From contig NC_088205.1 in NCBI RefSeq assembly GCF_037126465.1, forward strand, positions 30,921,482 through 30,985,481: a stretch of DNA of 64,000 nt, written 5' to 3'. The position numbers and the translations under genes are program-made. The notes under the pieces were generated by a model that saw only the letters and a list, made by a program, of their open reading frames with translations, did not search any database and was not told the DNA's origin. The DNA is from Ornithodoros turicata. Lineage: Eukaryota; Arthropoda; Arachnida; Ixodida; Argasidae. Below are positions 13,955 through 52,788 of this stretch, one piece after another (position 1 is the first letter of the stretch; each line of letters opens with the position of its first letter).

Positions 13955-16900
13955 GGTTCGTGTCCACCGACGTTCAAAGCGTTCAAATGTGTATTTCCGC
14001 AGTGAAACCTAAAAAATTCGGACGCGATGTGGTACTTCCCGCTCATTTGGCTAAACGTAGGAACGTGCAATCGAATATTCATTTACCAGCACGTAAGGAT
14101 GGCGAGTGTTTTAAATACAATACACTCGCCCTCCTCTATCCACAGGAAAGGAATTCGTGGAAAAGAATGTGAAAATTATGTGGCAGGGTACTGTTGGCCT
14201 AGCTGCTTCCCCGTGTCCTACTCTCATCTGGATGAATTCAAAGACAAAAACAAGATATCCGTGAAATCCACGGAGCTAAAAGCTGGAAAGAAGAAGATAT
14301 CCGTGTACGTATACGAGTACGTAGGGAGTGCACGTATCGCGATGCCAAAAACTGGAGTGCGAAAAGAAAATTCATTTGTTGGCTATAGATGAAGATTTTT
14401 TCAGAATCAAGTCCCTCGAGCGGTTACTGATGAGAGACAAGAGGTCTTGCTCGTGCTCTTTTAAGGAAGAAAAGAGCATGGCGAAGCATCGCTGTCTGTG
14501 CGCGGACGTAAACGAAATCCTATTGGAATTTTGTGAACCGGGAAAAATTTTTGTAGAATTTTGTAAAATACAGTACATGCAGCAGTACAACTGTACGTCG
14601 TCGCGTTGGAGACGGAGAGAGTACTCGCGCCCAGTGGTGCTGGCATGCAGCGTCATGTAACCTCGAGCTTCTGCGCCGTGCTCGTGCGCACCTACGACTC
14701 GAAGGTGATGCATATCAGGACGCACCACGGTGAAGATTCCGCGAGGCAGTGCACGAAGGCTTTGATGGAAATGCAGGACGAGATGATCTCCCTGAACGCC
14801 TGCCCCACCGCAATAGTGCTGAATGATGAGCAACGGGCCGAGCACAGAGCTGCCACACACTGCGCGTACTGTAAACGGAAGTTCGCGCAAGATCTACCCC
14901 GTGTCCGACATCATGACCATTCCAAGCATTGTACTGCCGGCGAGACAAATTACATTGAGACGCTGTGCAACCCCTGTAACGTGGTGTGCACGATGAGAGA
15001 AAAATTACCGATCATAGTGCACAACCTGGCCTATGATTTGGCCGGACTCCTGCGGGAATCGCACCTTCTCGGGTGGAAACGACCTCCCTTCATCGTGGCC
15101 AGTTCCATGGAAAAAATTCGATCGTTCGAAATTGGCACCTTCCTATTCAGGGATACCATGCAGTACCTAAATTCGTCGCTGGGAGAGCTAATGGAAACCG
15201 TCAAATCCATGGGGGCGCAGAGGCGTTCCAATGCCTGAAGCAGGTATTTGGAGACGACTACGAAATTTTACTCTGTAAAGGTGTTTTCCCGTACAGCCAC
15301 ATTAGCTCTTTCGCGGTGTACGATAAATTGGTTCTGCCCGCAAAATTCGTCTTCTGAAACGATCTGACTGGAGAGGATATAAGCTGGAGCTAGTACACGC
15401 TGCACGTATTTGAACGTTTTGGATGCTCGAATCTGAGGGATTATAAGGCGTTGTACCTGAAAACCGATGCCCTATTACATGCTGACGTAATGCAGCACTT
15501 CGACGCCTGTGCTATGATGCGCGCAGATTGGAATTGCTTCATTGCGTTGCTCATTGCGTTTCTCTTGATCATTGACGAGGACATGTACAGAACCATTGAA
15601 TGGGGTGTTAGGCTCTGTCAGGCGAGCAGGCGTCACTTACAGGCTAACAACCCTCTGTGCAGTGGCTATGATCTCGACAAAGAGGAGGTGTACCATATTG
15701 TACATAGATTGCAACAATCTACGGACTCAGTTTGATAAAACACTTCCCCGTCAGTGATTTCGAATGGGTCGAGGATTTTAGCTCCGTGAATTTTATGCGT
15801 TCCCCACGGGTTAGGACGTGGGGTACGTGTACGTGAGCGAGTTGGAGTATCGAAAATCTATCCACGCGCTCACGTGGTACTTCACCCTGCCTCATGACAA
15901 GGCGGTCGTCCCGAAGGGATGGCTCTCGCCGTTCCAACGAGGGCCCCTCGAAGTATTAATGTATCAGCCCGCGAACAGCACAAAGCTGCTGCTCACGTGC
16001 AATGACAAGGTCGAGTACATCGTTCATTACGCGCTGCTCGTACTCTATTGTAGATTGGGCATGAGGGTGAGGAAAATTGACCCAATTCTAAAATTTTGTC
16101 ACGCACCATTCCGGAGTTCCTACATTGAGGACAATGTTGCCAGACGCGTTGCCTCGGGCACGACGTTCAAAACCCCAAATAATGCGGTCTTCGGAAGAAC
16201 GCTGCTAAACAAATTTAATATGCGAGATATTCGAGTAGCCTTCGATGAGGAGATGGCGAGTCGTCTCGGCAGTAGGGTGGAATGCGTGAGAAAGGAAATT
16301 ATGTCCCCCGATTACGTCATGTACAAAATGCGCAAAAGAAAACTGCAATGCGATTTCCCCCTGCCGATTGGCTTTAGGATTTTAGAACTGAGTAAATTAG
16401 CCATGTACTTGTTCTACTACGAAACACTGCTGAGTAAGCTCACTCATCTGGTGATTACCTGCTACTTTGACACAAATTCTCTGATCCTCGGCCTATTCTG
16501 CAAGCACTACGAAGATCAGTTATGTGCGATCGCCGACGACCATTTAGATTTGTCTTCCTTCGATCAGAATCATCCACTGTACAGTGAGAGGAATCACGGT
16601 AGGCTTGGCGCGTTCAAAAGTGAAACTGGTAGCGTACCCATAGAGGAAGTAATATGCTTGAACGCCAAAATGTACTCCATCAAATTAGCCTGGGGAAAAC
16701 AAATTGCAAGAGCTAAAGGGGTCAAAAAGAACATAGTGCGCAAACACCTCCTCTGTGATACGAACAACGATACCCTATTCAAGCACACTAGCGTATCGCA
16801 TGAACAGGTGTCAGTAGTGGGAAAGAAACAGTACATGTACACCATCAGAAATGTGAAAAGAAGTCTGATGGTGTACGATGACAAACGATACCTCCACAAT

Positions 16901-16968
16901 GACGTCGATTCCTACCCGTACGGAAGCTGCGAATGTGGTAAGCTCGAGTGGATGACGTAGATAGCGGG
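13955..16968 (+). pseudogene. Polinton protein-primed DNA polymerase B
   Basis: About 3 kb reading through several frames in the order of a Polinton/Maverick pPolB. The N-terminal part runs from CFKYNTLALL to DEFKDKNKISVKST. A cysteine-rich segment CAYCKRKF...VRHHDHSKHC lies at about 14860-14940, and the KGVFPYSHISSF and LYLKTDALLHADV blocks at 15270-15490. Motif A YIDCNN is at 15701-15718 with a one-base frame change directly after it, then KGWLSPFQ, motif B NNAVFGRT (about 16178-16201) and motif C YFDTNS at 16463-16480. Family members have YxDTDS, so the second catalytic Asp is Asn here. The last 380 codons (15818-16960) are one open frame. Frameshifts and the Asn make it a pseudogene. Confidence 0.85.
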
Positions 16969-37275: not shown

Positions 37276-38762
37276 CTACCTACGATGTCTGAAACTTCTT
37301 CTCTCACGCCGTTGTTCACAACTTCGCTTTTTCTTTGTGGTGGCCTTTCCATAGTCGCATTCCGAATCCATTCTAAGACCGTTTCTACGCGCTAGATGTA
37401 CCGTTCGATTGGAAAGTATGTACGATAAATCATGTGGAAGCGCGTCTGATACAGCAGCCGTTGTACTGAATTCTCCAAATGTTCCACGCAAGCGTACGTT
37501 TGCTAGAGGCAGGCTGATTTCCTCACCCAAGGCCTGTCGCACCCAAACACGTCTCCCAGTGTATTCATGCTCCGGAACGTACGAGGCGTGAACAATATCA
37601 ATCGACGCTCCCGTATCGCGCAGAACCCTGCATTTCTTGCCATTAACGTTGCGAGTACTCAAATACGGCTTGAAAATTGATTTGTCTTCGTTATCCCTCT
37701 GAAATGCCATGGCCACGTACGCCTTTCGGCACCCTGCTGCTATGTGCCCTTCTTCGTGGCACTTATAACACACTACTGGCTTATTTCTTTCAAAAGACGC
37801 TCTAGCGTCTCTTTCCCTACGATTTGGCTTCTCACTTTCTGTCGAGCTTTCTGATTCGCGGTCAGAATCGCTTTCATTAGCAGATTCACTAGAACCAATT
37901 TTCTGCTTTCTTTTCTTTAGACCAGAAAAGGACCTGGTATTCTGACGCATTGCCACGTTCTTTCTCTCACGCAAGTTCGAACCCCTTCGTGACACATATT
38001 CATCCGCCAGATCTGCGGCATTCTCCACTGTGACAACCCCTGATTTGTCGCGCACCCAATTTCGCACTTTATCCGGTAACTCCTGGAGAAATTGCTCAAG
38101 CGCGATCGCCTCAAGAATCTTTTCGGCATCTCCAAATGCTTCAACACTCTTCATCCATTCTAGCAAGTTTGCTTCTACATCGAAACCTCGCTCGGCGAAA
38201 CTTTCCACCTTTCTACTCGACCCGTCCCTGAATCTCAACCGAAATGCTTCTGCTGACAAACGAAACCTCTTGAGCAAGCTTTGTTTCACCTTGTCATAAC
38301 TTTTTCTTGCGCGGAAAGTCGAGCAATGCTATCCGCCGCCTCGCATGGCAGTACCGTCATCAACCTCGCCGACCACGACCCTTTTTCGTAACCCTCTCGT
38401 TCGCAAACACGTTCAAAATTCACTAAAAACAGACCCATGTCTTGCCCTACTTTGAACGGTTGGAGAAGTTTCGACATATCTACGCTCTCGGGTCTTTGAG
38501 GGGACTCCGCGGTACCAGACTGCCGTCTAACAGCCAATTCTAATCTTAGTTTCTCTATTTCCCTTTCATGATCTTTGGCCACTTTTTCTCTTTGCTTTTT
38601 CTCTTCTAACGCCTGAAGGACCTCCTGTACATCATCCTCACCCAAGTCACTTTCTGTTATCGCTTGAATAACCTCTGCCTTCCGCGCCGTACTGCCTATT
38701 TCAACCCCAAATTCCCTGCAAACGTGAATCAAATCTACTCTCAGCCAACGCGTCAGATCCAT
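37276..38762 (-). pseudogene. gag: Gag-protease of the LTR element
   Basis: ATG at 38762 (the in-frame upstream TTG is not used) opens about 155 codons with a charged coiled-coil segment (LEEKKQREKVAKDHEREIEK). The frame ends near 38286. The second frame takes over within an A5 run (about 38306) and reads a SCAN/gag-like FQ-rich capsid region (RFRDGSSRKVESFAERGFDV). A zinc knuckle CYKCHEEGHIAAGC lies at about 37725-37768 and an aspartic protease motif DTGASIDIV near 37600. The shift could be programmed (A-run) or a mutation. The protein ends after the protease, with no pol following. Confidence 0.82.
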
Positions 38763-41494: not shown

Positions 41495-41500
41495 GACAGG

Positions 41501-44500
41501 AGTAGTAATGACCCGTATAGAAACTACGGGGGTGAGAAACTACGGCACCCCCTGCCCTGAGCCCTGCGCGTATTTTTCCCTGCGCGGCGCGTCCCTGCGC
41601 GTTTTTTTCCCCGCGCGGCGCGCGTGCGGAGGCTTGTCCGCGCGATTATAACATGCAGAGACATGCAAAGAAGGGTCATACTCAAAAAGTACAGGTGAAA
41701 ATATATTTATTAATGCCAATCAAGTTGAGATATATTTATTAAAGCCAATAGTGCTGGGAATTGTGATGCCAATCAGGTGAAGGAGAAAAACCCAGCCGAA
41801 AAACCTTCACCACTTGTAACAGGGCGGTGCTCGGTTGGAGGGTTGCTGTGGTGGGCGGAGCGTGACCGGAGGGCTGCGCGCTTACCATTCACCCTGGGCT
41901 GACTTCTTTCACCATTTTCCTACTTGGGCCGACTTCATTCCCGTGACAGGTGGGCGGTGCTCGGGTGGAGGGCTGCTGTGGTGGGCGGAGCGTGACCGGA
42001 GGGCTGCGTGCGTGCTTACCCTTCAGCCTGGGCTGACTTCTTTCACAATTTTCCTACTTGGGCGTCGCGTGGCCCGAGGGCTGCGTGTGCGTTTACCATT
42101 CAGTCTGGGCCGCCGACTTTCGTCATTTTTCAGCCTGAGTCGACTTGAATCGTAATTTTTCCAGCTACAACAGGTGTGCAGTTTACATGCAAAGGATATC
42201 TATACACAAAAGTACAAGTGAAAATATATTTATTAAAGTCATTATGAATTATGTTATGACTCTGCGTGAATGGGAAAAACTTAGCCAAAAATCTGAAATA
42301 GAAGGAACACAATACACGTAACAAAGAATATACTTGTTACAGGTATGATACATTAGCATTGAATAGGGATCACAAATCAAACACAATATTTTTATTAACA
42401 GTAATCACAAGTTTTCAATGAATCAGAATTGATAGCGCATTTAAAATATTCTTAATCAATACGATTACAATCAAAATTACAAATTATATTATAAAACGTC
42501 TAATATTCCTATACGTGAGAACCATCAGTGCAATAGCGGGAAGTTTTGATAGTTGTATGCAGTTAAATGTGAACAGCAGAGACTCTGGAGGACTATGGGA
42601 CAGGAACACAAGAGGAAATAAAATCTATACCACTACATTGGTTAATCAAAACAACATAGTAATCTATCATTCAGAAAATGAAAAAATCAAACTCATCAGG
42701 AAACAGACATGTTAAAAATGAACTTCACCACATAGCACGCTCCTAGCCAACAATCAGAACAAAGAATGACACGAACACAAGAGGAAATAAAATCTATACC
42801 AATACAAAGAAGATATTCCACTTCACTACATAGCACTCTCCTAGCCAACAAACAGAACAAAGAACGACACGAACACAAGAGGAAATAAAATCTATACCAT
42901 TACAAAGAAGATATTCCACTTCACCACATAGCACACTACCAGCAACAAGCAGAACACGAACGACAAGAACACAAGAGGAAATAAAATATATACCAATACA
43001 AAGAAGATATTCCACTTCACCACATAGCACGCTCCTAGCCAACAAGCAGAACAAAGAACGACACGAACACAAGAGGAAATAAAATCTATACCATTACAAA
43101 GAAGATATTCCACTTCACCACATAGCACACTACCAGCAACAAGCAGAACACGAACGACAAGAACACAAGAGGAAATAAAATATATACCAATACAAAGAAG
43201 ATATTCCACTTCACCACATAGCACGCTCCTAGCCAACAAACAGAACAAAGAACGACACGAACACAAGAGGAAATAAAATCTATACCATTACAAAGAAGAT
43301 ATTCCACTTCACCACATAGCACACTACCAGCAACAAGCAGAACACGAACGACAAGAACACAAGAGGAAATAAAATATATACCAATACAAAGAAGATATTC
43401 CACTTCACCACATAGCACGCTCCTAGCCAACAAACAGAACAAAGAACGACACGAACACAAGAGGAAATAAAATCTATACCATTACAAAGAAGATATTCCA
43501 CTTCACCACATAGCACACTACCAGCAACAAGCAGAACACGAACGACAAGAACACAAGAGGAAATAAAATATATACCAATACAAAGAAGATATTCCACTTC
43601 ACCACATAGCACGCTCCTAGCCAACAAACAGAACAAAGAACGACACGAACACAAGAGGAAATAAAATCTATACCAATACAAAGAAGATATTCCACTTCAC
43701 CACATAGCACACTACCAGCAACAAGCAGAACACGAACGACACGAACACAAGAGGAAATAAAATATATACCAATACAAAGAAGATATTCCACTTCACCACA
43801 TAGCACGCTCCTAGCCAACAAACAGAACAAAGAACGACACGAACACAAGAGGAAATAAAATCTATACCAATACAAAGAAGATATTCCACTTCACCACATA
43901 GCACACTACCAGCAACAAGCAGAACACGAACGACACGAACACAAGAGGAAATAAAATATATACCAATACAAAGAAGATATTCCACTTCACCACATAGCAC
44001 GCTCCTAGCCAACAAACAGAACAAAGAACGACACGAACACAAGAGGAAATAAAATCTATACCATTACAAAGAAGATATTCCACTTCACCACATAGCACAC
44101 TACCAGCAACAAGCAGAACACGAACGACACGAACACAAGAGGAAATAAAATATATACCAATACAAAGAAGATATTCCACTTCACCACATAGCACGCTCCT
44201 AGCCAACAAACAGAACAAAGAACGACACGAACACAAGAGGAAATAAAATCTATACCATTACAAAGAAGATATTCCACTTCACCACATAGCACACTACCAG
44301 CAACAAGCAGAACACGAACGACACGAACACAAGAGGAAATAAAATATATACCAATACAAAGAAGATATTCCACTTCACCACATAGCACGCTCCTAGCCAA
44401 CAAACAGAACAAAGAACGACACGAACACAAGAGGAAATAAAATCTATACCATTACAAAGAAGATATTCCACTTCACCACATAGCACACTACCAGCAACAA

Positions 44501-47484
44501 GCAGAACACGAACGACACGAACACAAGAGGAAATAAAATATATACCAATACAAAGAAGATATTCCACTTCACCACATAGCACGCTCCTAGCCAACAAACA
44601 GAACAAAGAACGACACGAACACAAGAGGAAATAAAATCTATACCATTACAAAGAAGATATTCCACTTCACCACATAGCACACTACCAGCAACAAGCAGAA
44701 CACGAACGACACGAACACAAGAGGAAATAAAATATATACCAATACAAAGAAGATATTCCACTTCACCACATAGCACGCTCCTAGCCAACAAACAGAACAA
44801 AGAACGACACGAACACAAGAGGAAATAAAATCTATACCATTACAAAGAAGATATTCCACTTCACCACATAGCACACTACCAGCAACAAGCAGAACACGAA
44901 CGACACGAACACAAGAGGAAATAAAATATATACCAATACAAAGAAGATATTCCACTTCACCACATAGCACGCTCCTAGCCAACAAACAGAACAAAGAACG
45001 ACACGAACACAAGAGGAAATAAAATCTATACCATTACAAAGAAGATATTCCACTTCACCACATAGCACACTACCAGCAACAAGCAGAACACGAACGACAC
45101 GAACACAAGAGGAAATAAAATATATACCAATACAAAGAAGATATTCCACTTCACCACATAGCACGCTCCTAGCCAACAAACAGAACAAAGAACGACACGA
45201 ACACAAGAGGAAATAAAATCTATACCATTACAAAGAAGATATTCCACTTCACCACATAGCACACTACCAGCAACAAGCAGAACACGAACGACACGAACAC
45301 AAGAGGAAATAAAATATATACCAATACAAAGAAGATATTCCACTTCACCACATAGCACGCTCCTAGCCAACAAACAGAACAAAGAACGACACGAACACAA
45401 GAGGAAATAAAATCTATACCATTACAAAGAAGATATTCCACTTCACCACATAGCACACTACCAGCAACAAGCAGAACACGAACGACACGAACACAAGAGG
45501 AAATAAAATATATACCAATACAAAGAAGATATTCCACTTCACCACATAGCACGCTCCTAGCCAACAAACAGAACAAAGAACGACACGAACACAGGAGGAA
45601 ATAAAATCTATACCATTACAAAGAAGATATTCCACTTCACCACATAGCACACTACCAGCAACAAGCAGAACACGAACGACACGAACACAAGAGGAAATAA
45701 AATATATACCAATACAAAGAAGATATTCCACTTCACCACATAGCACGCTCCTAGCCAACAAACAGAACAAAGAACGACACGAACACAAGAGGAAATAAAA
45801 TCTATACCAATACAAAGAAGATATTCCACTTCACCACATAGCACGCTCCTAGCTAACAAACAGAACAAAGAGCGACACGAACACAAGAGGAAATAAAATC
45901 TATACCAATACAAAGAAGATATTCCACTTCACCACATAGCACGCTCCTAGCCAACAAACAGAACAAAGAACGACACGAACACAAGAGGAAATAAAATCTA
46001 TACCAATACAAAGAAGATATTCCACTTCACCACATAGCACGCTCCTAGCTAACAAACAGAACAAAGAGCGACACGAACACAAGAAGAAATAAAATCTATA
46101 CCACTACATTGGTCAAACTCATCAGAAAATAGACATGTTAAAAATGAACTTCACCACATAGCACACTCCTAGCCAACAAACAGAACACAATCGACAAGAA
46201 CACAAGAAGAAATAAAATCTATACCACTACATTGTCAAACTCATCAGAAAATAGACATGTTAAAAATTAACTTCACCACATAGCACGCTCCTAGCCAACA
46301 AAGAACGACACGAACACAAGAGGAAATAAAATCTATACCACTACGAAGAAGATATTCCTAATCGAAACAACACAGTAATATATCATTCAGAAAATCAAAC
46401 TCAGCAGAAAATTAATATTCCTATACGTGAGAACCATCATTGCAATAGCGTGAATATCTGACATAACATTTCGAGCACAATAGACAATCTCAATTTCATA
46501 TTACTCAACTTTTAGTTTCTTATTAAGTGAATAGCATAGACGTAAGGAAAAACGAGAAACAACACAATCAACAGATACAATTAATAGAGAGCCAAAACCT
46601 GCGCACCATCCAACACATAGAGAAATAATAGCTAATCATTCTATCAAAGGCGAAATAGCAAAGACTTAACAATATAGCACAGGCTTAACGCTGAAGAACA
46701 GAGGAACACGCGGCTACACGTAAACATCAACAGAGGAAAATAATCTATCATTGAATCATCATAAAATCGATCAATATACAATTTTCGTTCTAACAAACAC
46801 TACGAACCTTGATGGAGGTATCCAAGACATAGGAAATATGCATGGTTTTCACTCTTTTCCTCAAAGCCGGGAGACTTTATGTCTCTATCTATGTGACCAT
46901 AGCACAGCGCATGCTTTATCACTCAAAGGGTTAGGGGCTATATTACTTCGTCCAGCAAACGGGGCGCTCTAGAGGTCAGATAAGAGAGTTCAAAGGCGAT
47001 ATATTTTATTGTGCAGCACAAATAGATGTCGATATCACTTGCTGGGGTCACTATCTTTTCGCATCCTTTCCCTGAAACGGAAATCTTTCGTCAAAGTGGT
47101 TGACAAGTCGGCTAAGTTTATAGAGATGCGATATTGTTATTGAAGATGTAGAGAAAGTCCAAATTATTAATTGGTAGCAATGATACTCAATCAAAAAGAG
47201 AAACAAATCTAATTACATCAATTTTTGTAATATCTTGCAACAGAAATTTCTAATGGACCACACAGAAATATCAAATGTGAAATGCAACTCAGAGTTATGA
47301 GGCATTCCCATCTTAGAGGTACTTACTTATGTCATGCGAGTGAACAATTGGAACAAATACAAGACAATAATTATCTCGAGCGGTAAGTTCACAACTCATA
47401 GAATATCAGTCGAGTGAATACTTGAAACAAAATCAAAACAATAATTCTCACGACAGGTGGAGATTATAGCATTCTAAACCAGAT
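41501..47484 (+). repeat. Left terminal inverted repeat arm
   Basis: From outside inward: a GC-rich outer part with GCGCGG repeats (41560-41645), two to three copies of a block with GGTGGGCGGAGCGTGACCGG (41855, 41973), AT-rich sequence, the 97/194-bp satellite (about 42720-46350), then 1.1 kb of inner arm. The inner arm includes a matched open stretch at 46751-46972 that also occurs in the right arm (50060-50281) with two residue changes. That frame starts at TTG, so coding is doubtful. The satellite is bracketed on both sides by copies of CCTATACGTGAGAACCATCA. Confidence 0.9.
42720..46350 (+). repeat. 97-bp satellite arranged as 194-bp dimers
   Basis: Monomers of about 97 bp (CACTTCACCACATAGCAC, GAACACAAGAGGAAATAAAA) alternate between two forms. 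One has ACTACCAGCAACAAGCAGAA, the other GCTCCTAGCCAACAAACAGA. From 42890 to about 45800 the dimer repeats every 194 bp with almost no divergence, about 15-16 dimers. Outside that stretch only single monomers of the second type occur. The minus strand stays open for 124 codons per dimer, but this is a periodic artefact, not a gene family. Confidence 0.95.
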
Positions 47485-47582
47485 AATAAAATTTTAATCA
47501 ATAAAATAAACATAGATATGCTTTTAATTAAGTGTAGATGTGCACTTGAAAACAGAAGAGACAATTGCTCTACATTGAAAAG

Positions 47583-48011
47583 ATGGACAGATTTTGTACT
47601 CGATACCATAAGTCATGGGAAGATGTGATAAAAAACTGCTTCGAAAAGGAGGTGCCGCGAAACGATTTCATTATCGCTGCATTTCAATACGTCCTAGACA
47701 TGGTCGTATTCGGAGATATGGTACAAACTACAGAACTGAAGGTGCAAGAATTTATATGCCGAATCTACAATACTTATAAAAATATCTGCACATCAACGTC
47801 GGAAGGGCCATTGGGATTGATGGCGGAGTTTTTGAGGTTTGCCAACGAAGAATTGAAATACACTAGACCAGATGTAATTGTAATCATTGCAATGGGCATT
47901 GCATATATCAAGAAAGCAGTCGGATCAAATTATCATATACAAGCGGTCTATATCACACGATTCATTACGGATTTGTTGAAATTACACATATCTGAGATGG
48001 AAAGTACATAA
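47583..48011 (+). CDS. Core ORF1, 142 residues, unrecognised
   Basis: First gene of the unique core. ATG at 47583; the frame's earlier TTG at 47565 is not used. It stops at 48009-48011. It is predicted mainly helical (DRFCTRYHKSWEDVIKNCFE, IIAAFQYVLDMVVFGDMV) with hydrophobic helices near the C-terminus (VIVIIAMGIAYIKKAVG, YITRFITDLLKLHI) and six Cys. There is no signal peptide. The overall length and helical pattern recall small viral accessory proteins, but I cannot assign a family. It lies 69 bp upstream of ORF2 on the same strand and probably shares a transcript with it. The region upstream is AT-rich. The frame is intact within a recently inserted-looking element, so it may be functional. 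Confidence 0.6.
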   Translation: MDRFCTRYHKSWEDVIKNCFEKEVPRNDFIIAAFQYVLDMVVFGDMVQTTELKVQEFICRIYNTYKNICTSTSEGPLGLMAEFLRFANEELKYTRPDVIVIIAMGIAYIKKAVGSNYHIQAVYITRFITDLLKLHISEMEST

Positions 48012-48080
48012 AATCTTATCACGTGATATATTCCACTACCACGGCAACGCAATTATTTTCTTCTACCAGTCTCTTCAACG

Positions 48081-48428
48081 ATGTCGAATCAACAGAAGTT
48101 CAATACTGTCGTGCAAGGTCTGATGTATTATCACCTGTTGAAACTCAACAAACATATCAATTGCGGTGGACCACCGGACGATTTTCATCTAATACTCTCT
48201 TGTACGCCATTCAAGAACCTTCATACAAAGAAAGGAAGCATCAATAAGAGACTGTGCAAGCTCATCGCGACAAAGTGGAAGTTGTTGAAGCAATACAAAC
48301 ACGGCGACAACATAGCGCCTGCGTTAATCAACGCTGGATTCAAGCGCCCAATAATCATAATAAACTATTTAATGTCTTCGGAATTCATCAATGAAGACAA
48401 CAAACGAAAACTTCAGAGTTTGAAATAG
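48081..48428 (+). CDS. Core ORF2, 115 residues, unrecognised
   Basis: ATG at 48081 and stop at 48426-48428. It begins MSNQQKFNTVVQGLMYYHLL and contains a basic central stretch (KKGSINKRLCKLIATKWKLL, about residues 49-68). The C-terminal part is GFKRPIIIINYLMSSEFINE, ending RKLQSLK. It is very lysine-rich and probably a helical, nucleic-acid-binding or core-like small protein. The family is not recognised. An AATAAA follows at about 48443, suggesting the end of an ORF1-ORF2 transcript. Confidence 0.55.
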   Translation: MSNQQKFNTVVQGLMYYHLLKLNKHINCGGPPDDFHLILSCTPFKNLHTKKGSINKRLCKLIATKWKLLKQYKHGDNIAPALINAGFKRPIIIINYLMSSEFINEDNKRKLQSLK

Positions 48429-48496
48429 AACTGTAATTTATCGAAATAAACAAGTGTATAAGTGAAACAATAATTGTAATATTTGTCATCATTATA

Positions 48497-48598
48497 ATGA
48501 ATTCTTCGCATCACAATGAAAAACACTTTACATTTAGCATGGCTAGACTGAGAGCAATGATCGCTAAAGAAACGAATAATATTCCACAATTTGTGTAA
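48497..48598 (+). CDS. Core ORF3, 33 codons
   Basis: ATG at 48497 gives MNSSHHNEKHFTFSMARLRA and MIAKETNNIPQFV, then TAA at 48596-48598. It is spaced 68 bp behind ORF2, like the ORF1-ORF2 gap of 69 bp. After the stop a further frame (EFSYRMRPDHQIGF...) continues for about 40 codons, so this may be the start of a longer gene that has since been broken. Unknown. Confidence 0.35.
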   Translation: MNSSHHNEKHFTFSMARLRAMIAKETNNIPQFV

Positions 48599-48599
48599 G

Positions 48600-49547
48600 A
48601 ATTCTCATATAGAATGAGACCTGACCACCAAATAGGTTTTACTCGACTACACTCTGTACAAATTCAACACCCGATGGATAGAATTGCCGGAGAAGGATCG
48701 GTCATTGAAATTTAGAGACATGATACATCGGTCAATGATTACAAAAAGGATCACTAATCTCATGTGAAAACTTATCATATTTCATGAATTAAATTCCACA
48801 GTGCATGTATATTTCTCAATCAGTTGCACTATCCCAGACTTAGTAAAAGAAGAAAAGGCCTCTTTGACAAGCAACCCGATTGGAGTGCGGAACAAATAAA
48901 TAAATATTTTTGTCAAAATAGTTGTCCATTGTTTGAGTAGGAAAAAGGAGCCGTCCAAAGCTTGCAGTGGGGGCCAAGATATGGCAAAACGGGAAATCAG
49001 GCAAGGTAAGTGATCGCGGCGGGCCGTTCGCGACAACTTTTACAATCGCATTGGGGTTCACTGCCTGGGAGATAATACGAAGCCTTCGCGGAAAGCGAAT
49101 CTATTATCAGATACCACAATGCAAACGAAAGATTTTACGAGCACGACGCACAGGCCAAGTCTACGTTTCTAATCACGTAGTCTTCGTAACACACGGCACA
49201 CAAACGTATATGAAAATTTCACAATACGCAAGCTTTAGGTCGCTCACTTTGACGAGCACTCTTTCATGATGTCAGGGAATTTAATCGAATAGATTGATAT
49301 TTTCTGTATACACTTTAACATAATGCGAATTCTTTATGTCGCGGATATTAAAAGTTACGAATATTTTTTCGAACGAAAATTTACTTAAGACTCGAAGAAA
49401 GGGTCACTCGGGTCGACGAACCCGTTTCCAGAAAAAGCAACACGTTCGCGTGCGGTACCGCGTTAACGCGTCGGGCGCAGAATCGCGTTCGGTTTCGGGT
49501 ACAGCATTATGGAAACGCGGCCCGGCGTGTTGCCGAAACGTCTTCGA
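48600..49547. other. Core 3' part with a GC-rich block
   Basis: AT-rich to about 48990, then clearly GC-richer at 49010-49160 and 49390-49545. Open plus frames at 48967-49269 and 49336-49584 include basic blocks (GHSGRRTRFQKKQHVRVRYR), but both start at GTG/ATG positions without other support. The second overlaps the inner end of the right arm. The composition differs from the rest of the element and could mark an acquired piece. Confidence 0.4.
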
Positions 49548-52542
49548 ATCTGGTTTAGAATGCTATAATCTCCACCTGTCGTGAGAATTATTGTTTTGAT
49601 TTTGTTTCAAGTATTCACTCGACTGATATACTATGAGTTGTGAACTTACCGCTCGAGATAATTATTGTCTTGTATTTGTTCCAATTGTTCACTCGCATGA
49701 CATAAGTAAGTACCTCTAAGATGGGAATGCCTCATAACTCTGAGTTACATTTCACATTTGATATTTCTGTGTGGTCCATTAGAAATTTCTGTTGCAAGAT
49801 ATTACAAAAATTGATGTAATTAGATTTGTTTCTCTTTTTGATTGAGTATCATTGCTACCAATTAATAATTTGGACTTTCTCTACATCTTCAATAACAATA
49901 TCGCATCTCTATAAACTTAGCCGACTTGTCAACCACTTTGACGAAAGATTTCCGTTTCAGGGAAAGGATGCGAAAAGATAGTGACCCCAGCAAGTGATAT
50001 CGACATCTATTTGCGCTGCACAATAAAATATATCGCCTTTGAACTCTCTTATCTGACCTCTAGAGCGCCCCGTTTGCTGGACGAAGTAATATAGCCCCTA
50101 ACCCTTGGAGTGATAAAGCATGCGCTGTGCTATGGTCACATAGATAGAGACATAAAGTCTCCCGGCTTTGAGGAAAAGAGTGAAAACCATGCATATTTCC
50201 TATGTCTTGGATACCTCCATCAAGGTTCGTAGTGTTTGTTAGAACGAAAATTGTAAATTGATCGATTTTATGATGATTCAATGATAGATTATTTTCCTCT
50301 GTTGATGTTTACGTGTCGCCGCGTGTTCCTCTGTTCTTCAGCGTTAAGTCTGTGCTATATTGTTAAGTCTGTGCTATTTCGCCTTTGATAGAATGATTAG
50401 CTATTATTTCTCTATGTGTTGGATGGTGCGCAGGTTTTGGCTCTCTATTAATTGTATCTGTTGATTGTGTTGTTTCTCGTTTTTCCTTACGTCTATGCTA
50501 TTCACTTAATAAGCAATTAAAAGTTGAGTAATATGAAATTGAGATTGTCTATTGTGCTCGAAATGTTATGTCAGATATTCACGCTATTGCAATGATGGTT
50601 CTCACGTATAGGAATATTAATTTTCTGCTGAGTTTGATTTTCTGAATGATAGATTACTGTGTTGTTTTAATTAAGAATATCTTCTTCGTAGTGGTATAGA
50701 TTTTATTTCCTCTTGTGTTCGTGTCGTTCTTTGTTGGCTAGGAGCGTGCTATGTGGTGAAGTTAATTTTTAACATGTCTATTTTCTGATGAGTTTGACAA
50801 TGTAGTGGTATAGATTTTATTTCTTCTTGTGTTCTTGTCGATTGTGTTCTGTTTGTTGGCTAGGAGTGTGCTATGTGGTGAAGTTCATTTTTAACATGTC
50901 TATTTTCTGATGAGTTTGACAATGTAGTGGTATAGATTTTATTTCTTCTTGTGTTCGTGTCGCTCTTTGTTCTGTTTGTTAGCTAGGAGCGTGCTATGTG
51001 GTGAAGTGGAATATCTTCTTTGTATTGGTATAGATTTTATTTCCTCTTGTGTTCGTGTCGTTCTTGGTTCTGTTTGTTGGCTAGGAGCGTGCTATGTGGT
51101 GAAGTGGAATATCTTCTTTGTATTGGTATAGATTTTATTTCCTCTCGTGTTCTTGTCGTTCGTGTTCTGCTTGTTGGCTGGTAGTGTGCTATGTGGTGAA
51201 GTGGAATATCTTCTTTGTAGTGGTATAGATTTTATTTCCTGTTGTGTTCGTGTCGTTCTTTGTTCTGTTTGTTGGCTAGGAGAGTGCTATGTAGTGAAGT
51301 GGAATATCTTCTTTGTATTGGTATAGATTTTATTTCCTCTTGTGTTCGTGTCATTCTTTGTTCTGATCGTTGGCTAGGAGCGTGCTATGTGGTGAAGTTC
51401 ATTTTTAACATGTCTATTTCCTGATGAGTTTGATTTTTTCATTTTCTGAATGATAGATTGCTATGTTGTTTTGATTAACCAATGTAGTGGTATAGATTTT
51501 ATTTCCTCTTGTGTTCGTGTCCCATAGTCCTCCAGAGTCTCTGCTGTTCACATTTAACTGCATACAACTATCAAAACTTCCCGCTATTGCACTGATGGTT
51601 CTCACATATAGGAATATTAGACGGTTTATAATATAATTTGTAATTTTGATTGTAATCGTATTGATTAAGAATATTTTAAATGCGTTATCAATTCTGATTC
51701 ATTGAAAACTTGTGATTACTGTTAATAAAAATATTGTGTTTGATTTGTGATACCTATTCAATGCTAATGTATCATACCTGTAATAAGTATATTCTTTGTT
51801 ACATGTATTGTGTTCCTTCTATTTCAGATTTTTGGCTAAGTTTTTTCCATTCACGCAGAGTCATAACATAATTCCTAATGACTTTAATAAATATATTTTC
51901 ACTTGTACTTTTCTGTATGGCTATCCTTTGCATGTAAACTGCACACCTGTTGTAGCTGGAAAAATTACGATTCAAGTTGACTCAGGCTGAAAAATGAGGA
52001 AACTCGGCGGCCCAGGCTGAAAAATGACGAAAGTCGGCGGCCCAGACTGAATGGTAAACGCACACGCAGCCCTCCGGTCACGCTCCGCCCACCACAGCAG
52101 CCCTCCACCCGAGCACCGCCCACCTGTCACGGGAATGAAGTCGGCCCAAGTAGGAAAATGGTGAAAGAAGTCAGCCCAGGGTGAATGGTTAGCGCGCAGC
52201 CCTCCGGTCACGCTCCGCCCACCACAGCAACCCTCCCACCCGAGCACCGCCCTGTTACAGGTGGTGAAGGTTTTTCGGCTGGGTTTTTCTCCTTCACCTG
52301 ATTGGCATCACAATTCCCAGCACTATTGGCTTTAATAAATATATCTCAACTTGATTGGCATTAATAAATATATTTTCACCTGTACTTTTTGTGTATGACC
52401 CTTCTTTGCATGTCTCTGCATGTTATAATCGCGCGGACAAGCCACCGCACGCGCGCCGCGCAGGGAAAAATACGCGCAGGGCTCAGGGCAGGGGGTGCCG
52501 TAGTTTCTCACCCCCGTAGTTTCTATACGGGTCATTACTACT
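49548..52542 (-). repeat. Right terminal inverted repeat arm
   Basis: Reverse complement of the left arm from ATCTGGTTTAGAATGCTATA (49548) to the end. It is nearly identical outside the satellite. The satellite here is reduced to about seven monomers between 50690 and 51400, mostly the CTAGGAGCGTGCTATGTGG form without the regular dimer. The outer GC-rich block is shorter than in the left arm. Confidence 0.9.
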
Positions 52543-52788
52543 GACAGGCATCGTGTGTATACACGACCTCATTCTTGCTCCATTATTTGCTTTCATCTGT
52601 CTTGTTATTCAAAGGCCATACCACTTTTTGCATATGAAATAAATTGTAATGTACCATATCTTGTTCGAGTGTCATTCCTGCATATTTCATGGACAAGTGT
52701 AGAATGAACATCATGGACCCCCGACCAGTTGCAAACGCTGCCAATACCCCGAAAGTGTGTATTGAACACTCTGCATCACAAAATGAAA

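Follow-up and report, generated by a model that had tools for sequence, protein, structure and literature searches.

Satellites are known for giant viruses, phages and adenoviruses. Known virophages and satellite viruses depend on a larger DNA virus, encode capsids of their own and in many cases also genes for replication, and in the symmetric defective genomes of adenovirus 12 (SYREC), which are helper-dependent, one viral end is found inverted at both termini. The fold-back transposon Galileo of Drosophila has a target-site duplication of 7 bp. In vertebrate Mavericks (Polintons; also polintoviruses or adintoviruses), according to the accessible text of PMC8097293, (AGT)2//(ACT)2 is the commonest end motif, the target-site duplications are of 6 bp, and the repeated end triplet is tied to the jumping-back step of protein-primed replication; 6 bp is also the characteristic Polinton duplication in the available part of PMC10045372. 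Here, we describe an element of about 11 kb from the argasid tick Ornithodoros turicata, located in a 64-kb stretch of DNA (contig NC_088205.1, positions 30,921,482 to 30,985,481; hereafter, the window). We consider it probable, with fairly good confidence, that the element derives by deletion from a palindromic, non-autonomous satellite of Mavericks that was replicated and integrated in trans. The available part of a survey of ixodid ticks lists 453 adintovirus-integrase insertions, all in Ixodes (PMC10675110). In our literature search, no paper was found that names both Ornithodoros and Polinton, and no satellite of animal Mavericks was found described in the accessible portions of the literature, tick-specific papers included.

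The two ends of the element are perfectly matched over the terminal 20-mers (AGTAGTAATGACCCGTATAG, at 41501 on the plus strand and at 52523-52542 on the minus strand), and no further site for this 20-mer was present in the window even when 3 mismatches were allowed (expected 0.00). The initial annotation of the window, made from the letters alone, had reported AG ends, an exact GACAGG duplication of 6 bp, and terminal inverted repeats of 6.0 and 3.0 kb around a 2.06-kb core. The duplication was found and our measured lengths agree with those values (Table 1); the ends are in fact more specific, with the motif AGTAGT//ACTACT. When duplication lengths from 1 to 12 were tried at this copy, 6 bases was the sole fit, apart from a trivial 1-base match. 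AGTAGT is rare in the window, with 15 sites among the 127,990 positions of both strands, the element's own two counted.

The left outer arm was used as a query of the host assembly (1.07 Gb, 379 contigs; the window lies on contig C5), and at least 148 matching pieces were obtained in the best 40 of 4,025 candidates. At least 39 related arm matches are located elsewhere in the genome; the 40 arm positions listed include the window's own left arm. Eight further loci contain inverted arm pairs, which together with the window makes nine paired copies with both ends read. Five of them have AGTAGT at both ends together with an exact 6-bp duplication that differs from copy to copy (Table 1), and the duplication length taken as a Polinton signature in the initial annotation thus recurs in all four further copies with intact ends. 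Of the two end motifs of Mavericks, (AGT)2//(ACT)2 and (AG)3//(CT)3, the first was found, as AGTAGT, at both ends in five of the nine copies and at one end in the other four. Five single arms, picked for a match reaching the extreme end, all start with AGTAGT. The copies at C1:205.83M and C1:212.09M, 6 Mb apart, are mutual nearest relatives arm by arm, and may represent one duplicated locus, possibly a segmental duplication.

Comparison of the copies revealed a palindromic architecture. At C1:205.83M (locus L057), a 4,447-bp inner stretch is repeated in inverted form with 97.5% identity around a centre of 106 bp, and the arm measures about 5.7 kb from the left-side AGTAGT; centres of 106 and 107 bp were found in L059 and L054, respectively. 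ORF1 and/or ORF2, the two open reading frames (ORFs) of the family, occur in both orientations in five of the nine paired copies (L054, L057, L058, L060 and L061) and in two of the six single-arm loci that were read further in (L065 and L068, one ORF2 of the latter being truncated where the fetched stretch ends). Among the remaining single-arm loci, L069 contains one ORF set, L066 and L067 contain arm or inner-arm pieces without ORFs, and the stretch read inward of a single arm on contig C25 (L064) is devoid of element sequence. The ORFs are also missing from L048, a form of 2.5 kb. A more complete copy consists of two arms of about 5.7 kb placed tail to tail over a centre of 106-107 bp, and each arm comprises a terminal AGTAGT, one satellite array and both ORFs. 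In the window copy, the right arm passes almost straight from the centre to the inner arm, without the ORF-bearing half, and the left arm is short of about 560 bp present in other copies, which indicates that this copy is a deletion derivative.

The core had been described initially as containing only small AT-rich frames. This description did not hold, as the core encodes proteins of 142 and 115 amino acids (aa), both of which recur in other copies of the element. The period-3 signal of ORF1 was reached by 15 of 1,000 shuffles and that of ORF2 by 3 of 1,000, and two non-coding segments of the core, as well as the inner arm, were unremarkable (205, 583 and 504 of 1,000 shuffles). General searches gave no significant match for either ORF, and a confident fold was obtained for neither protein. 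The relationship of ORF1 to an autonomous Maverick of the same genome was first detected by tblastn (1.2e-11). By BLASTP, ORF1 is 27% identical over 135 aa (E 5e-14) to the 196-aa Maverick protein encoded directly downstream of integrase (L070:631-1218, minus strand), and 33 columns are invariant in a five-row alignment. ORF2 had no comparable match in the autonomous Maverick (best E 0.34). Between copies, ORF1 was recovered in 13 rows from eight of the nine loci searched, with no in-frame stop when gapped codons were excluded (6 of the 13 rows are gap-free); ORF2 has one stop among 11 rows. The ORF1 variants comprise 17 synonymous and 27 non-synonymous changes (pooled pN/pS 0.32), a synonymous excess with p = 0.004 in rows that are related to one another and under a count in which mutation bias is not modelled; the same applies to the ORF2 values given below. 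As a compact relative of the integrase-adjacent gene, ORF1 may help to recognise the ends or to recruit the enzymes of the helper.

We also searched the element for the enzymes of Mavericks. Six-frame Pfam scans of positions 46345-49700 and 41501-42721, which cover the outer left arm and the stretch from the inner left arm through the core to the start of the inner right arm, gave no PolB, integrase, ATPase or protease domain. At other loci, the frames scanned with Pfam were those of the L057 centre, where no PolB, packaging ATPase or adenovirus-type protease was found, and four large frames of L054 and L055. The enzyme genes in the latter two interiors are parts of nested retroelements, and the rve domain inside L055 belongs to a nested BEL/Pao element. 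This retroelement occupies L055:4936-9978 and has gag-like, reverse transcriptase (with Pao peptidase) and integrase frames; an inserted RNase-H frame is present within the L054 copy. No Pfam match to a capsid was seen in the element, but two autonomous-Maverick frames of 436 and 349 aa had no match either, so Pfam cannot judge capsids here. A 133-aa frame in L064 (1116-1517, minus strand) resembles by eye the C-terminal part of a Tc1/mariner transposase; it lies in the stretch beside the single arm, and an unrelated transposase was not seen in the copy interiors that were read. The initial statement that Polinton genes are absent is supported for the four enzyme domains in the parts scanned, and was incorrect with regard to ORF1, which is homologous to a Maverick gene. 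Since the element has Maverick-like ends and lacks the gene content of a Maverick, we named it a non-autonomous Maverick satellite.

Candidate helpers are present in the same genome. At least 91 matches to the Pfam polymerase PF03175 were above the cut-off (among 1,253 candidates), many of them in open frames of 1,161-1,282 aa, and no match was obtained in 14 control genomes. The Maverick population of this genome is rich and, it appears, recent. Many of the polymerase matches score identically. From the 1,161-aa class, we read two copies piecewise around the polymerase. They are 16,791 and 16,768 bp long, and their identity is 99.2-99.5% for the nearer two pieces and 96.5-98.1% for the farther one. 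Both end at ACTACT with AGTAGT at the opposite end, are flanked by 6-bp duplications (GAGGCC and CACTAC), and have aligned terminal repeats of about 446-569 bp. Ten frames of the copy on C7 were scanned with Pfam: rve integrase and an AAA/A32-type ATPase were above the cut-off, Chromo and an adenovirus-type protease were below it, and six of the ten frames had no match at E 0.01. These matches show, as a control, that Pfam finds genes of this kind where they exist. Full-length relatives with AGTAGT ends and 6-bp duplications, which the initial annotation proposed to look for, thus exist in this tick with polymerase and, in the one scanned, integrase. The Polinton-type ends, the possible parasitism on Polintons and the fold-back-like layout that had been suggested are supported.

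The terminal sequences were alike within a copy and different between copies. In all five copies with intact ends, the first 60 nt of the two ends are identical at 58-60 positions, whereas between copies only 22-43 of 60 positions agree (ungapped, 10 left-end pairs). Over the adjoining 987 bp, the divergence is about 5% between copies and 0.7-3.4% within them. Among the 26 arms compared, the nearest relative of an arm was its own partner in four of seven pairs, and the arms of the two C1 copies were nearest to the other C1 copy. A similar pattern was noticed in the two autonomous Mavericks (ends L074/L071 and L075/L073), in which six bases differ within nt 8-20 and none elsewhere in the first 60; each bears its own version of nt 8-20 at both ends, as read by eye in these two copies. 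Judged from these alignments, the bases directly following AGTAGT seem to evolve rapidly, with copying to both ends, in the satellite and in the Maverick alike.

These features can be accommodated in a model based on protein-primed replication. The Maverick polymerase would start at AGTAGT, with a jump back across its repeated triplet, and the satellite would be copied as a linear molecule. The displaced strand, self-complementary over kilobases, would fold back, and one arm would then template the other, which would make both ends of a copy alike while copies differ. The Maverick integrase would insert the satellite in trans and leave the 6-bp duplication. We propose that the family probably originated by snap-back duplication of one end of an ORF1-carrying Maverick, much like the symmetric-ended defective genomes of adenoviruses. 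In the window copy, the ORF half of the right arm would have been lost, and the left array would have grown from about 7 to 37 units, before or after insertion.

The element resembles Mavericks in its (AGT)2//(ACT)2 ends and 6-bp duplications (as described in the accessible text of PMC8097293), in one homologous gene and in the presence of autonomous members in the same genome. It differs from them in that no PolB, integrase, ATPase or protease was found in the parts scanned, by its palindromic form with satellite arrays in the arms, and by the length of these arms, 3-6 kb (in the C1:205.8M copy, each measures about 5.7 kb) versus 46-1,447 bp in intact vertebrate Mavericks. It could be argued that the element is instead a full Maverick in decay, which lost its genes by internal deletion, had its repeats enlarged once by an inverted duplication, and was thereafter duplicated passively as a locus. 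The Maverick ends, the Maverick-related gene and the internal deletions are compatible with such a history, as is the resemblance of the two C1 copies to one duplicated locus. We nevertheless regard it as unlikely: five separate targets, each with a duplication of its own, point to repeated integration, and the synonymous excess of ORF1 between copies also speaks against passive decay. Long inverted arms with internal tandem repeats of varying number are shared with Tetris and Galileo of Drosophila, and Tetris copies likewise have no transposase, according to the available part of PMC4079207; with the array size variation and the lack of a transposase, these traits would suit an ordinary Mutator/P-type fold-back transposon moved by cut-and-paste, with Maverick-like ends arisen by chance. 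This explanation seems very unlikely to us. Tetris duplications are 8-10 bp long in the same part of that source, in contrast to 6 bp in the five intact-end copies; AGTAGT, though rare, marks the boundary of every one of them; and ORF1 is related to a Maverick gene. The conserved ORFs and the presumed replicative route further distinguish the element from Tetris and Galileo.

The near-complete palindromy, the two conserved compact genes and the hypervariable yet matched ends could also suggest a small, independent DNA virus of ticks, palindromic and replicating by a route of its own, which acquired Maverick ends and one Maverick gene. As polymerase, Rep and helicase domains were not found in the parts scanned and neither protein gave a confident fold, we give this possibility very little credence. 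In comparison to the adenovirus 12 SYREC genomes, the element has been inserted many times in the host genome and has genes in each arm, and it differs from virophages and satellite viruses in that only two small genes were found. We thus favour a Maverick satellite. The ends, the 6-bp duplications, the copy family, the palindromy, the ORF1 homology and the abundant Maverick-type polymerases (two of them traced to elements that share the end motif and the duplication length) were all observed directly.

Several results weigh against this interpretation. Replication, mobilisation and present activity of the element were not observed. Beyond AGTAGT, the element has no meaningful DNA similarity to the Maverick class read (one 33-bp match in an array, E 0.002), so the parent is not shown and capture of ORF1 is conceivable. 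The ORF1 match in a second Maverick (L072) is broken into two pieces (3.5e-6), and constraint on ORF2 is not clear (8 synonymous and 30 non-synonymous variants, pooled 0.53, p = 0.5). In four of the nine paired copies, either an intact pair of ends or a recognisable duplication is missing. All 40 arm positions are more than 137 kb away from any of the 91 polymerase matches, and no intermediate was seen. The left outer arm of the window copy differs by 3.0% from an arm on C79 and by 3.4% from its own right arm, being marginally closer to the former, and subfamilies alone, without snap-back, would also give matched ends within a copy.

Table 1. Features of the element in the window and paired copies in the O. 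turicata genome
Feature	Position	Strand	Description
Whole element	41501-52542 of 64-kb window		~11 kb
Left target-site duplication	41495-41500	n/a	GACAGG; exact repeat flanking both sides
Right target-site duplication	52543-52548	n/a	GACAGG; exact repeat flanking both sides
End motif AGTAGT	41501-41506	+	(AGT)2 of vertebrate Mavericks
Left arm	41501-47484	+	5,984 bp
Left arm, outer part	41501-42721	+	GC-rich terminus, then duplicated subterminal modules; relatives elsewhere in host genome
Left satellite array	42722-46344	+	37 units, chiefly 98/96-bp pairs
Left arm, inner part	46345-47484	+	98.8% identity to right inner arm, gapless
Core	47485-49547	+	2,063 bp; mostly within inverted repeat in more complete copies
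ORF1	47583-48011	+	142 aa; homologue of gene after integrase in autonomous Maverick
ORF2	48081-48428	+	115 aa; conserved among copies, without known relative; AATAAA at 48445
Palindrome-centre equivalent	49429-49534	+	106 bp in other copies; 96% identity to L057 centre
Right arm	49548-52542	-	2,995 bp
Right arm, inner part	49548-50687	-	ORF-bearing half absent between inner part and centre
Right satellite array	50688-51398	-	7 units
Right arm, outer part	51399-52542	-	terminates in ACTACT
Window copy	window		duplication GACAGG; AGTAGT at both ends
Paired copy	C6:10.96M		duplication TACACT; AGTAGT at both ends
Paired copy	C5:43.56M		duplication AACACT; AGTAGT at both ends
Paired copy	C6:23.16M		duplication TGCGAC; AGTAGT at both ends
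Paired copy	C1:17.69M		duplication CGCGCC; AGTAGT at both ends
Paired copies	C1:205.8M, C1:212.1M		AGTAGT on left only
Paired copies	C4:48.69M, C79:1.30M		AGTAGT on right only

Both arms of the window copy share one layout, in which an outer part with a GC-rich end is followed by an array of 98-bp units and then by the inner part, and the two arrays are collinear at both edges. Their different lengths are due to amplification of the 98/96-bp pair in the left array. Between the inner arms, 14 of 1,140 sites are different and there are no gaps; between the outer arms it is 35 of 1,143, part of these at the boundary of a 47-bp gap. This divergence, together with the unequal arrays, cannot be explained by an assembler merely copying one arm. 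If substitution rates between 1e-9 and 6e-9 per site and year are assumed, none of them tick-specific, the inner arms would be 1-6 and the outer arms 3-16 million years old, as an order of magnitude only. The right part of the core (48851-49547), which spans the palindrome centre, has a CpG observed/expected ratio of 1.71 and a higher G+C content than the ORF part.

Elsewhere in the window, a gypsy-type polyprotein is encoded that is 55% identical to protein P0004, labelled as Anaplasma phagocytophilum and located on a 4.4-kb contig; P0004 is probably tick DNA in a bacterial record. A 337-aa gag-like frame (37276-38289, minus strand) matches the SCAN domain and, weakly, zinc-knuckle and protease domains, and a 380-aa open frame (15818-16960, plus strand) has no Pfam match.

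More tentatively, and with somewhat less than even confidence, we suggest that the family represents a new class of selfish element: a fully palindromic Maverick satellite with two genes per arm, whose fold-back replication rewrites one end from the other and whose bases after the invariant AGTAGT are hypervariable, ORF1 being perhaps a Maverick gene co-opted to exploit the helper or to keep it in check. If the satellite interpretation is correct, the tick genome houses a system of Mavericks and their parasite in which polymerase genes in long open frames are numerous, and sequence alone would suffice to test mobilisation in trans, what the gene after integrase does and how Maverick ends are regenerated. 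The matched yet hypervariable ends may be read as a legible footprint of replication, and their behaviour, common to the autonomous Mavericks of the same host, would then be direct genomic evidence of Maverick end copying.

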